NCBI RefSeq assembly: GCF_009741275.1
Contig: NZ_WOWS01000005.1
Location: forward strand, 124,001 to 188,000
DNA: 64,000 nucleotides
Source of the DNA: Winogradskyella endarachnes
GTDB lineage: Bacteria; Bacteroidota; Bacteroidia; Flavobacteriales; Flavobacteriaceae
Direction: 5' to 3'
Shown: positions 38,000 to 42,580 of the stretch, one piece after another
How the letters are laid out: every line of letters starts with the position of its first letter
Position numbering within the stretch: the stretch's first letter is position 1
The notes under the pieces: generated by a model
The model's input: the letters and a program-made list of their open reading frames with translations, nothing else
Told to the model about the DNA's origin: nothing
Database searches by the model: none
Translations under genes and position numbers: made by a program

Positions 38000-38059
38000 C
38001 GTCAGTTCGAGTGATTTTATGACATCGGAATAAAATTGTATCGAGAACACATACATATT

Positions 38060-39061
38060 ATGAGCAAAATAAAAGAAGAATTACAAAAACGAATCTTAGT
38101 TCTCGATGGAGCCATGGGAACCATGTTGCAGCAATATAATTTCTCAGAAGAAGATTTTAGAGGCGAACGCTTTAAAGATTATCCATCACCATTAAAAGGA
38201 AATAATGATTTATTGTCCATAACGCAACCCAAAGCCATAGCAGAAATTCATGCAAAATATTTTGAAGCTGGTGCAGATATTGTAGAAACTAATACCTTTT
38301 CTGGAACTACCATTGCCATGGCAGATTACGATATGGAAGATTTAGTATATGAGTTGAATTTTGAATCTGCAAAAATCGCTAGAGAAGTTGCAGATAAATT
38401 CACTAAAGAAAATCCTGAAAAACCGCGTTTTGTAGCCGGAAGTATTGGACCAACAAACCGAACAGCAAGTTTATCACCAGACGTTAACCGACCAGAATAT
38501 AGAGCCATTACTTTTAACGAATTACGTGTAGCCTACAAACAACAAGTAGAAGCCTTAATTGATGGTGGTGTAGATATGCTTTTGGTGGAGACTATTTTTG
38601 ATACCTTAAATGCAAAAGCGGCTTTATTTGCTATTGAAGAAGTAAAAGAAGAACGCCATATTGATATTCCTATTATGGTTTCGGGTACCATAACTGATGC
38701 CTCAGGCAGAACATTATCTGGCCAAACGGTTGAAGCATTTTTAACCTCAATCTCACACATTCCGTTATTAAGTGTTGGCTTTAATTGTGCGCTTGGTGCG
38801 CAACAACTACAACCTTATTTACAACGCTTATCGGACGAAACAGAGTTTTTTACCTCAGCACATCCAAACGCTGGTTTACCAAATGCTTTTGGAGAATACG
38901 ATGAAACCCCAGAACAAATGCAAGGTTATATTGAAGCTTATCTTAAAGATAACCTCATCAACATTATTGGTGGTTGCTGTGGCACTAGTCCTGAGCACAT
39001 TAAAGCCATCGCTGAAGTTGCTCAGAAATATGAACCAAGGAAATTGGTTGTTGGTGTATAG
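38060..39061 (+). CDS. metH: Methionine synthase, homocysteine-binding half (split MetH, N-terminal module)
   Basis: The ATG at 38060 ([24 protein letters not shown]) is chosen over a TTG 24 bases upstream. The 333-residue barrel binds and activates homocysteine. Zinc ligands are the Cys in SVGFNCALG (about 242) and the pair in [10 protein letters not shown] (about 304-307). Full-length MetH carries this as its first domain; here it is a separate gene. I recall the split form as common in Flavobacteriaceae. Its last codons, LVVGV and the TAG, lie inside the left terminus of an inserted cassette at 39044, so the native C-terminus was probably '..EPRK'. Its reading frame is the same as that of the C-terminal half. 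Confidence 0.92.
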
Positions 39062-39490
39062 TTGATAGTGGTCAGTTAAAAAAGAAAAGAATGGATTATA
39101 CAGAATTAGATGTTTGGAAATTTTCAAGGGAGCTTGTGAAAAAAGTTTACTTACTAAGTAATTCCTTTCCTCAGGAAGAACTGTACGCCTTAACAAATCA
39201 AGTTAGGAGGTGTTCCATTTCTATTCCTTCAAATATTGCAGAGGGATTAGGAAGACAATCCAACAAAGAAACGATTCATTACTTATTTATTTCAAAAGGT
39301 TCATTATATGAACTTGAAACACAACTTTTTTTAGCTTTCGATTTAGATTACATCTCTGAAGAACAATTAAAACGAATTTTAGAACACGTTACCTCTTGTA
39401 AAAAGCTGCTTAACGGATTCATTAATTATTTCAAATCAAAAAAGTAAGATGAGTGCATCCAGCAACTATCAACAAACAACTAAAAACCAA
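39044..39490 (+). mobile_element. 447-bp four-helix-bundle (S23/IVS-protein) cassette with terminal inverted repeats
   Basis: Both ends read TTGGTT-N11-GTTGATAGT inward: left at 39044-39069, right as the complement at 39465-39490. Both anchors match perfectly at identical spacing, and the 11-base middle is only half matched. The cassette encodes the S23-like protein at 39091. The left end contributes the last codons and stop of the upstream MetH module, and the right end contains the ATG and the first dozen codons of the downstream one. The length is divisible by three, and the two MetH halves share a frame, so exact removal would join '..YEPRK' to '[11 protein letters not shown]..' in one open frame. 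No clear target duplication is seen. Confidence 0.75.
39091..39447 (+). CDS. Four-helix bundle protein, 23S rRNA intervening-sequence (S23) family
   Basis: This is a 118-residue all-helical protein: [39 protein letters not shown] and [20 protein letters not shown] are the usual landmarks of the family (PF05635 from memory). The family was first found in intervening sequences inside Leptospira 23S rRNA genes, and relatives (Avd) act with diversity-generating reverse transcriptases. Here it lies between the two methionine synthase genes, inside inverted repeats, in a frame offset from theirs, and stops 1 base before the next start codon. It has no evident link to methionine synthesis, so it is best seen as cargo of a small mobile cassette. 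Confidence 0.88.
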
Positions 39491-42400
39491 AAGTATCTAA
39501 CATTATCTGGATTAGAACCACTCGTGGTAACACCAGACAGTAACTTTATAAACGTAGGCGAACGTACCAATGTTACTGGCTCACGTAAATTCCTTCGACT
39601 TATAAAAGAAGAAAAATACGACGAAGCCTTAGAAGTGGCAAGAGACCAGGTTGAAGGAGGCGCACAAATCCTTGATGTTAACATGGACGAAGGTATGCTA
39701 GATGGTGTACATGCCATGACCACCTTCTTAAATCTTATTGCCTCAGAACCTGATATCGCTAGAATTCCCATAATGATTGACAGTTCTAAATGGGAAATTA
39801 TTGAAGCCGGTTTGCAAGTTGCGCAAGGGAAATGTGTGGTAAATTCTATAAGTTTAAAAGAAGGTGAAGCCCAATTTAAGCACCATGCTAAACTTATTAA
39901 ACGTTATGGTGCTGCTGTGGTGGTGATGGCTTTTGATGAAGATGGCCAAGCCGACAATTACGATAGACGCATTGAAATTTGTAAACGTTCGTATCATATT
40001 TTAGTAAACGAACTTCAATTTCCGGCACAAGACATCATCTTTGACCCCAATATTTTTCCGGTGGCTACAGGTATGGACGAGCATCGTAGAAATGCACTCG
40101 ACTTTTTTGAAGCGACCAAATGGATTAGAGAAAACTTACCTCATGCCAATGTTTCTGGTGGAGTGAGTAATGTGTCTTTTTCATTTAGAGGAAATAATGT
40201 TGTACGCGAAGCCATGCATTCGGCCTTTTTATATCACGCCATTAAAAACGGCATGAATTTAGGAATTGTTAATCCTACAATGCTTGAAGTTTATGATGAA
40301 ATTGATAAAGTTTTATTAGAACGTGTAGAAGATGTTTTGTTTGATAGACGCGATGACGCTACGGAACGCTTATTAGATTTTGCCGAATCGGTAAAAGGAC
40401 AGAAAAAAGAACAAGATGATAAAGTACAAGAATGGAGAAGCGACTCATTACAAGATAGAATTACCCACGCCTTAGTAAAAGGTATTGACACTTATATTTT
40501 AGAAGATGTGGAAGAGGCACGTTTAGCCACTAGCCAACCTATTGAAGTCATTGAAGGGCACCTAATGAATGGTATGAATGTGGTTGGCGATTTATTTGGC
40601 AGTGGAAAAATGTTTTTACCGCAAGTGGTGAAATCGGCACGAGTTATGAAAAAAGCGGTTGCGTACCTTCAACCTTTTATAGAGGAGGCAAAAAAAGCCC
40701 CTAAATCCCCAAAGGGGACTTCTTACTGGAAGACAGCCGACCCACTGTTATACGGATTAATGAAAGCACATGCGCAAAAAATGCGAAACCAACCCACAGA
40801 AGCAGAAGTTTTACTTTGGAATGTTTTAAGGAATAAACAATTAGATGATTATAAATTTAGAAGACAGCATATTGTTGGAAGTTATATTGCCGATTTTATT
40901 TGCTTAAAAAAAGGATTGATAGTAGAAATTGATGGACTTATACATCAATTACCAGAAAACAAAGCTTCAGATGAAGAACGAACAAAATGGTTAAATGAAC
41001 AAGGTTATCGTGTCATACGATTTACAAATGATGACGTTTTATCAAATCTTGATAATGTTATTGAAAGATTAAAAGAAGCCCTAAAAGTTTCCCCTTTGGG
41101 GACGGAAGGGGCCAAATCTGCTGGTAAAATATTAATGGCCACCGTTAAAGGAGATGTGCATGATATCGGAAAGAATATTGTAAGTGTCGTTCTAGGTTGT
41201 AATAATTATGAAATCATTGACCTTGGTGTAATGGTGCCACCAGAGAAAATTATTGAAACCGCTATTAAGGAAAAGGTAGATATCATTGGGTTGAGTGGGT
41301 TAATTACACCGTCGTTAGATGAAATGGTTTACGTGTCTAAATCACTTGAAAAAGAAAAAGTAAACATTCCTTTAATTATTGGAGGTGCAACCACGTCTAG
41401 AGCCCATTCTGCCGTAAAAATTGCACCTCATTATAACCATACTGTGGTTCATATTAATGATGCTTCAAGAGCAGTAACTGTTGTCGGAGATTTACTAAAA
41501 GAAGACAGTATAGTTTATAAAAACCAAATTAGAGAAGAGTATGATGCGTTCCGAGAGCAATTCTTAAAACGTACCAAGAAAAAGGATTATTTAACGATTG
41601 CTGATGCTCGAAAAAACAAATTTAAAATCAATTGGAATACTTCTGAAATTGTAAAACCAAAACAATTAGGCATTCAAATTATTGAAGATTTTGATATCAC
41701 TAAACTTGAAGAATTCATTGATTGGTCGCCATTTTTTAGAAGTTGGGATTTGCATGGCAAATATCCAGCCATATTAACGGATGATGTTGTTGGTACACAA
41801 GCCACAGAATTATTTGCTGATGCGCAGGTGTTACTGAAACGTATTTTTGATGAAAAACTGCTTAAAGCAAAAGCCGTATTTGGACTATTTGAAGCGAATA
41901 CTGTAAACGATGATGATATTACAATCTCTGATTGTAATGCTGAACTTGATTCAGCATCTAATGAAGGCACCTATACTTTTCTAACCCTTCGTCAGCAATC
42001 CAAAAAATCTGAAGGCAAACCAAACATTGCCTTAGCCGATTTTATTGCACCAAAAGCAACCAACAAACAAGATTATATGGGTTGTTTTTGTGTAACAACG
42101 GGATTTGGAACCGCAGAATTAGCAGCACAGTTTGAAGCCGAACACGACGATTACAATTCAATTATGATTAAAGCTTTAGCAGATAGATTAGCAGAAGCTT
42201 TTGCTGAATATTTGCACAAGGAAGTAAGAACAAAACATTGGGGTTATGCTAATAATGAAAACTTGTCTAACGACGAGTTAATTAAAGAAAATTATAAAGG
42301 TATTAGACCAGCACCAGGTTATCCTGCTTGTCCAGACCATCTAGAAAAGAAAACCATTTGGGATATACTTAAAGTAGAAGAAAACATTGGAGTAAAACTT

Positions 42401-42580
42401 ACAGAGAGTTTAGCCATGTGGCCAGCAGCGAGTGTCAGTGGTTACTATTTTGGTAATGCAGAAGCTAAATATTTTGGTTTAGGAAAAATAAAAGAAGACC
42501 AAATTGAAGACTATAGTAAACGAAGGGACATTTCAAAAGAAGAAGCAACGAAATGGTTGAGTCCTAATATTGCAGATTAA
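39449..42580 (+). CDS. metH: Methionine synthase, folate/cobalamin/activation half, carrying an in-frame DUF559 insertion
   Basis: This is 1043 residues. Order: element-derived N-terminus (about 1-14); pterin-binding barrel (about 15-290: [31 protein letters not shown] region, [13 protein letters not shown]); helical cap (about 310-415); foreign insertion (about 417-555) with a DUF559 endonuclease domain; cobalamin domain (about 556-690) with the lower-ligand His in [11 protein letters not shown] and [13 protein letters not shown]; and SAM-binding reactivation domain (about 750-1030) with [12 protein letters not shown]. Without the insertion it would be about 900 residues, the usual size. A second short insertion (about residues 828-840) coincides with a palindromic repeat. 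The insertion lies in the cap-cobalamin linker, so activity may survive. Confidence 0.93.
40697..41113 (+). mobile_element. 417-bp DUF559-endonuclease cassette inserted in frame in metH
   Basis: The left end at 40697-40720 is GCCCC-N5-CCCCAAAGGGGAC. The right end (41087-41113), read in complement, is GGCCCC-N6-CCCCAAAGGGGAA. These imperfect inverted repeats each contain a CCCC-AAA-GGGG hairpin. Between them lies an uninterrupted 139-codon stretch in the metH frame. The encoded domain has '[17 protein letters not shown]', [45 protein letters not shown] and '[12 protein letters not shown]'. This is the DUF559 (Vsr/PD-(D/E)xK-like) pattern with the conserved Glu, Asp and E-x-D intact. In this frame the repeats encode Pro/Gly-rich linkers ([14 protein letters not shown]). 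Confidence 0.85.
41937..41957. repeat. REP-like palindrome inside metH
   Basis: ATGCTGAA (41937-41944) pairs with TTCAGCAT (41950-41957) around loop CTTGA. I know this TGCTGAACTTGATTCAGCA unit as a common dispersed repeat in Flavobacteriaceae intergenic DNA. Here it lies within codons of the MetH activation domain (translated NAELDSAS), where homologues have a shorter loop, and it keeps the frame. Confidence 0.7.

Follow-up and report, generated by a model that had tools for sequence, protein, structure and literature searches.

The methionine synthase gene (metH) of Winogradskyella endarachnes, which lies in a 64,000-nucleotide stretch of contig NZ_WOWS01000005.1 (the whole of which is termed the window here), carries within its reading frame a cassette that encodes a nuclease domain of the family DUF559 and ends in G/C-rich palindromes. 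That this is a mobile, palindrome-ended, nuclease-coding element inserted in frame is well supported, and it probably belongs to a homing-like class that dispenses with splicing. The insertion is in frame, its ends are palindromic, empty alleles exist, presence is patchy, lineages are mostly site-specific, insert and host are discordant in closely related pairs, and the domain is under purifying selection. That the cassette's own nuclease drives its mobility, and with it the cutting of DNA, the target and the route of repair, we infer.

The cassette in methionine synthase

The initial annotation of the window, made from sequence alone, described a DUF559 insert of 417 bp, a multiple of three, lying in frame between the cap and cobalamin domains of MetH, and the features below bear it out.

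39449..42580, + strand: host open reading frame, C-terminal part of methionine synthase (pterin-binding, cap, cobalamin and activation domains), 1043 aa including the insert
40697..41113, + strand: complete in-frame cassette, 417 bp or 139 codons
40697..40718, + strand: left border palindrome GCCCC-N5-CCCCAAAGGGG-A, translated APKSPKG
40763..41083, + strand: DUF559 (PF04480) nuclease core, MetH aa 439-545
41090..41112, + strand: right border palindrome T-CCCCTTTGGGG-N6-GGGGC, translated SPLGTEGA

The insert contains zero stop codons, and Pfam places DUF559 at aa 439-545 (E 5.8e-36; 123.1 bits against a curated cut-off of 20.6), flanked by B12-binding_2 (335-407) and B12-binding (559-650). The N-terminal part of the enzyme is an open reading frame of its own (38036-39061). 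Since no cobalamin-independent synthase (PF01717, MetE) was detected in the genome, the insert-bearing MetH is the sole methionine synthase detected there. The second and last DUF559 of the genome is also in frame, within RecG. Apart from PF04480 and its relative PF18741, Pfam detects no domain in the 139-aa insert; an intein is rejected, as there is no Hint or intein domain and the edges read A-P-K and E-G-A followed by K, in agreement with the earlier statement that splicing residues are lacking, none being seen at the edges by eye.

Structure comparison with Foldseek assigns the domain a Vsr-like nuclease fold resembling I-Bth0305I (PDB 3r3p); the VIA-align run re-aligned Foldseek matches only. 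An 11-sequence alignment has invariant columns at E453, D482, E493, D495 and H499, which by analogy we take to be putative catalytic residues. Conservation extends more widely: of 64 in-frame domains, all retain D55 and H72 and 63 retain E66 and D68, and of 29 free domains 28-29 retain these four residues, in line with the initial impression that the fold residues look intact. The domain is under purifying selection: by class, the median ratio of nonsynonymous to synonymous substitution (dN/dS) is 0.09-0.23 for inserts and 0.06-0.14 for hosts (few pairs being unsaturated), and among three Winogradskyella MetH it is 0.07-0.13 for the insert and 0.04-0.05 for the host part.

Empty and filled alleles

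Alignment with MetH of related genomes, as the initial annotation had proposed, places the insert well short of family-wide. Searching 37 genomes of the genus (its own included) with the MetH open reading frame recovered the host parts in 27, and site 1, the junction discussed here, is filled in two of these (G000, G318) and empty in 25; empty alleles hold 12 nt where the window has 420, a net gain of 408 nt. The same junction is filled in genomes of other genera (L017, L021, L022, L030 and L073, the last with a longer insert that has different ends). The insert is 94% identical to that of the window in W. litoriviva and 91% in W. sediminis. That it is an old native domain of MetH, or an artefact of assembly, is hardly credible: insert-bearing MetH is indeed numerous in databases (about 118 of 120 proteins are MetH-like by Pfam, among the matches listed), but the native domain is rejected by the 25 empty alleles, the artefact is rejected by recurrence of the insert in independent assemblies such as those of W. 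litoriviva and W. sediminis, and the same domain occurs in unrelated genes.

Occupancy within the genus is patchy. Eight of 30 fetched same-genus RecG loci are filled, and on the host tree occupancy requires at least five changes for RecG and at least two for MetH. The earlier supposition that the host carries the insert permanently accordingly needs qualifying, turnover being partly independent of the host. In LeuRS, site 1 is found within the genus in three states: empty (G000, FNVNGHDDVIDVFT), occupied by a short in-frame peptide (SSAVETSH, SEAKQS, SDEESH or TLSEVEES), or occupied by a cassette (G308, G320, and G330 by L113). LeuRS site 2 is empty, or holds CHSELVSES or a solo border peptide of SPSGRLGG type (L020, L033, L042), and in other families it holds a cassette (L203, L206, L209). 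A neighbouring landing site in MetH, outside the cassette, behaves similarly elsewhere, with SPLGGDLEA in L021 and a DUF559 cassette in L017, L264, L273 and L276; in the window it reads as follows.

41937..41957, + strand: MetH site 2, 8-bp-stem palindrome ATGCTGAACTTGATTCAGCAT, translated NAELDSAS

The short in-frame peptides in the cassette loops of LeuRS (L220-L249) and MetH (window 41937-41957), namely SSAVETSH, SEAKQS, SDEESH, HSELVSES and AELDSAS, look like several apparent repeat families, resembling a Bacteroidota counterpart of the Rickettsia palindromic elements.

Palindromic ends

The left metH border is composed of GCCCC (40697-40701), TAAAT, CCCC (40707-40710), AAA, GGGG (40714-40717) and A, and the right border of T, CCCC (41091-41094), TTT, GGGG (41098-41101), ACGGAA, GGGG (41108-41111) and C; matching inverted repeats with CCCC/GGGG hairpins had been predicted and are present, except that the right spacer is 6 nt rather than 5. 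Taken one by one, the metH borders are short. Among the ten elements at metH site 1, no more than one shuffle in 40 attained the best hairpin of two left and five right borders, and the best right-flank hairpin fell in host sequence in three. Their recurrence in the genome is, however, no chance effect: CCCCAAAGGGG has 12 copies in 3.61 Mb (reversed control, 0), and GCCCCTTTAATTCCCCAAAGGGGA matches at 8 places when as many as 3 mismatches are allowed (control, 0). Of the 12, two are the borders in metH, another two make up one pair of about 95 bp (L008), one (L010) is apparently in frame in a small gene and translated SSPLGKVDG, and seven are solo and, by eye, intergenic. Across the 37 same-genus genomes, nine have both CCCCAAAGGGG and an internal DUF559 cassette, three the cassette only, four the palindrome only and 21 neither; cassettes here are those in MetH, RecG, IleRS and LeuRS, the N-terminal PALP-type fusions in G300, G306, G309, G311, G326 and G333 being left out, and in G000, G326 and probably G318 the palindrome counts take in borders that belong to the cassettes themselves.

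Taken by class, the ends stand out more broadly. At left and right borders the mean best hairpin scores 15-21 in almost all classes, while shuffles give about 10-11 and control regions farther out mostly 10-12; the single metH2 right border scores 12.0. Hairpins attained by no more than one shuffle in 40 occur at 12/15 left and 8/15 right borders of recG, and at 14/20 and 11/20 of leuS. Free-standing DUF559 genes, for which the initial annotation had proposed similar ends, have them as a tendency rather than at every gene (21/29 left and 23/29 right flanks), so that border repeats, whose absence around other DUF559 genes it had named as telling against its reading, are present there. Left stems read by eye from the listed borders, which is not a covariation score, have matching changes in both arms in recG (TCCTCCC/GGGAGGA, TCTTCCC/GGGAAGA, ATTCCCC/GGGGAAT, CCCTCCC/GGGAGGG) and leuS (CTTCCCC/GGGGAAG, CCCTTTCC/GGAAAGGG, CCCCCTCC/GGAGGGGG), which we read as selection on the palindrome itself. 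The score for terminal inverted repeats (TIRs), comparing left with right border, exceeds 20 of 20 shuffles in 6/6 ilvA-type, 2/2 ileS, 1/1 metH2, 17/29 free, 10/20 leuS, 5/10 metH site 1 and 0/1 hisD cases, and PALP fusions have near-perfect TIRs of about 30 nt at their ends. Inspection of the junctions in MetH and RecG by eye revealed no obvious target-site duplication.

Separate histories of insert and host

Close pairs, chosen by hand (three of Winogradskyella MetH and two of RecG), are more telling than an all-pairs test of synonymous divergence. In MetH the insert has diverged less than its host at synonymous sites, at 0.175 against 0.386 between the window and W. litoriviva (p 1.2e-4; adjacent 60-codon blocks at 0.54 and 0.41), 0.338 against 0.486 between the window and W. 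sediminis (p 0.012), and 0.333 against 0.473 between the latter two species (p 0.016). RecG of G299 and G325 follows the same direction (0.087 against 0.303, p 7e-6), whereas that of the sister genomes G000 and G301 takes the opposite one (0.59 against 0.39, p 6e-4). Because the insert departs from its host in both directions, a single codon constraint does not fit. Correlation between insert and host divergence is weak for metH and leuS (Spearman 0.32 and 0.31).

Lineages are largely site-specific. With identical domains dropped before tree building, a tree of 93 domains requires 9 changes of host site (minimum 8, shuffled mean 56) and one of 220 domains requires 53 (minimum 41, shuffled mean 145), and 116 of 156 in-frame domains have their nearest relative at the same site. 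Internal inserts form a clade apart from free-standing genes in the smaller tree (SH-aLRT 89); the split is less clean in the larger, where 'free' (open frames below 215 aa there, below 240 aa in another count) needs 18 changes. Four genes carry two full cassettes each; in two of them, both MetH, the copies are nearer to one another than to any other domain (L017, 87%; L276, 85%).

Hosts across the Bacteroidota

DUF559 occurs in 143 of 299 genomes of the family and 109 of 198 of the phylum, and among the matches listed 46 of 150 and 33 of 150, respectively, lie in open frames of at least 250 aa. A scan of named genomes confirmed at least 577 of 591 candidate stretches; in the best 80, which were kept, the domain is in a frame of at least 215 aa in 64 and in a short frame in 16. 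By record titles these 80 loci are all from Bacteroidota except one 'Nitrotoga' metagenome-assembled contig with a MetH insert, which is perhaps a binning error; stretches ranked below these 80 may include other phyla. The search for further in-frame insertions suggested at the outset thus found many, RecG of the same genome included, and together with empty alleles in close relatives and divergence unlike that of the flanks they uphold the idea of a small in-frame mobile unit in essential genes.

Hosts with Pfam evidence comprise MetH (site 1, site 2 and two more), LeuRS (the second site by Pfam, the first by editing-domain sequence), IleRS, ValRS and MetRS; HsdR, HsdM, type ISP, Eco57I/TaqI_C-type and other methylases; a UvrD-type helicase, UvrA, CinA, an IcmF-type mutase, adenine deaminase and an Aldedh/MaoC protein; and Epimerase_2, DegT and an epimerase-type protein, with one DUF559 beside peptidase M23. 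Terminal fusions join DUF559 to HemD, HemF, QueG, RNase H, a PALP enzyme, HisD and GATase_5. In MetH, LeuRS, IleRS, MetRS, ValRS, RecG, UvrA, CinA, HsdR, HsdM and further proteins, the in-frame domain returns to defined loops and has borders of this kind. RecG was identified by homology and the remaining hosts by reading of translations. Restriction-modification proteins of several types hold many in-frame cassettes (L173, L174, L175, L177, L179, L187, L200, L207, L211), although a second domain in L177 (660-744; branch 4.97) may not be DUF559.

Proposed mechanism and alternatives

The coding part of the cassette is a compact Vsr-like endonuclease domain, its G/C-rich hairpin ends read as short Pro/Gly-rich linkers (SPKG / SPLG), and the whole lies in short variable loops adjoining conserved motifs of important proteins. 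The open frame suggests that it is translated within the host protein, where it is probably tolerated because the domain folds independently between flexible linkers. Most likely, in spreading, the nuclease would cut or nick either the empty allele or the hairpins at the ends, and repair would copy the cassette into the same loop of that allele, in functional analogy to an intein- or intron-borne homing endonuclease minus splicing. Such copying is favoured because of the fold, the selection on the domain, the site-fixed lineages and the insert-specific divergence. More tentatively, the cassettes may form a phylum-wide class of selfish elements in Bacteroidota, which would find another answer to the problem that inteins overcome by splicing: a homing-type nuclease would persist in essential proteins as a translated, self-folding domain with linkers of its own, and would mobilise hairpin derivatives that occur solo and whose insertion leaves short in-frame peptides behind in these loops.

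Several points weigh against a mobile, homing-like cassette. No nuclease activity or movement has been observed, and Pfam finds no separate DNA-binding domain in the MetH insert. The co-occurrence of palindrome and cassette in the genus (Fisher 0.0008) is measured by a statistic that ignores kinship, and TIR scores exceed 20 of 20 shuffles in 1/15 recG and 2/9 hemD cases, which is not significant; in recG the hairpins stand out and the TIRs do not. The all-pairs synonymous test, from which L073 was left out, is near saturation and gives outliers in a minority of pairs, namely 5/36 metH, 14/105 recG and 40/190 leuS. Nearest relatives lie at another site for 40 of 156 in-frame domains, some of them at sites seen once, and in L264 (MetH) and P0007 (MetRS), which carry two cassettes each, the copies are not mutually nearest. 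Divergence of RecG inserts mostly tracks that of their host (Spearman 0.79; Mantel 0/999), which implies much vertical descent; vertical descent and separate movement both occur. Finally, palindromes exist solo in the genome without a nuclease, so that the ends may define the element.

The co-divergence in RecG, like the purifying selection, would also suit a DUF559 that serves its host as an accessory in defence, repair or regulation, inherited mainly vertically and often lost. This we regard as quite improbable, for the hosts are unrelated, ranging from tRNA synthetases to MetH, presence is patchy, divergence is discordant in both directions, and the palindromic ends recur. The solo palindromes bear on another alternative, somewhat less improbable yet still unlikely: that the true mobile unit is a palindromic element akin to REPINs or to miniature inverted-repeat transposable elements (MITEs), moved by another enzyme acting in trans, such as a Y1 transposase, or through palindromes recombining with one another, with DUF559 as cargo. 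Solo copies and the 95-bp pair share the cassette's ends, short peptides resembling the borders occur without a nuclease in loops of LeuRS and MetH as well, and the genome has one Y1_Tnp match (25.2 bits). However, the ends are without the GTAG/CGTC tags of repetitive extragenic palindromic (REP) sequences, the nuclease keeps its putative catalytic residues under purifying selection, and the Y1_Tnp match shares a frame with a HemF-like protein and by eye has no such borders around it. That match lies in the W. endarachnes genome at L142 1441-2973 (C34), in one open frame with the HemF-like protein; L214, from another genome, is a HemF with an N-terminal DUF559 fusion.

If homing-like copying is correct, a mobile nuclease can invade essential genes without splicing, carried as a tolerated domain, which would offer a testable route for domain gain by proteins and explain why DUF559 occurs in unusual architectures with tRNA synthetases, MetH, RecG and restriction enzymes. 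It would likewise show where essential enzymes have loops able to accommodate about 140 additional residues, and suggest what is done by a family whose name still says 'unknown function'.

Relation to known systems

The cassette shares half of its features with Rickettsia palindromic elements and half with Vsr-like homing endonucleases. The former and other in-frame bacterial MITEs have palindromic ends and lie both between genes and in frame in conserved protein genes, the host protein apparently working; they measure about 105-146 bp, and the available part of the source mentions no nuclease (PMC2229807). Compared by that partial description, they share with the cassette palindromic ends and in-frame insertion in several conserved genes, here many hosts, but the cassette is about 400 bp long, its nuclease domain is conserved and its lineages are mostly site-specific. 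Vsr-like (EDxHD) homing endonucleases such as I-Bth0305I reside in self-splicing introns or inteins, or are free, and have extended DNA-binding regions (PMC3943268, in the part available), whereas in the cassette neither a splicing element nor a further domain was detected. The accessible part of an account of REP/REPIN elements with RAYT transposases describes paired hairpins, some around an enzyme gene, solo copies, and REPs inside open reading frames (PMC3733652). The cassette is alike, on that description, in its paired hairpins, in the enzyme gene between some of them and in its solo copies; it differs in that its enzyme is PD-(D/E)XK-like, not a Y1 transposase, and is itself in frame in host genes, and by inspection neither a GTAG nor a CGTC tag is found in the metH borders or the solo consensus. 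With inteins it shares a nuclease inserted in frame adjoining conserved motifs, while its borders are Pro/Gly-rich linkers in which splicing residues were not seen. In-frame palindromic elements, REPs in open reading frames and Vsr-like homing nucleases are thus known separately, from sources available in part; in the open-licence PMC literature searched, neither their combination nor a description of in-frame DUF559 cassettes was found.

Further observations

Between the split metH halves lies a gene for a 23S rRNA intervening-sequence protein (39091-39447; PF05635, E 2.5e-38), around which no CCCC/GGGG borders were seen. The 792-aa MetRS of P0007, which judging from its Pfam match lacks part of the N-terminus, combines two DUF559 domains with a further border-like peptide. 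Viral contigs (n=72) encode relatives of the DUF559 domain, 24-47% identical and mostly distant.
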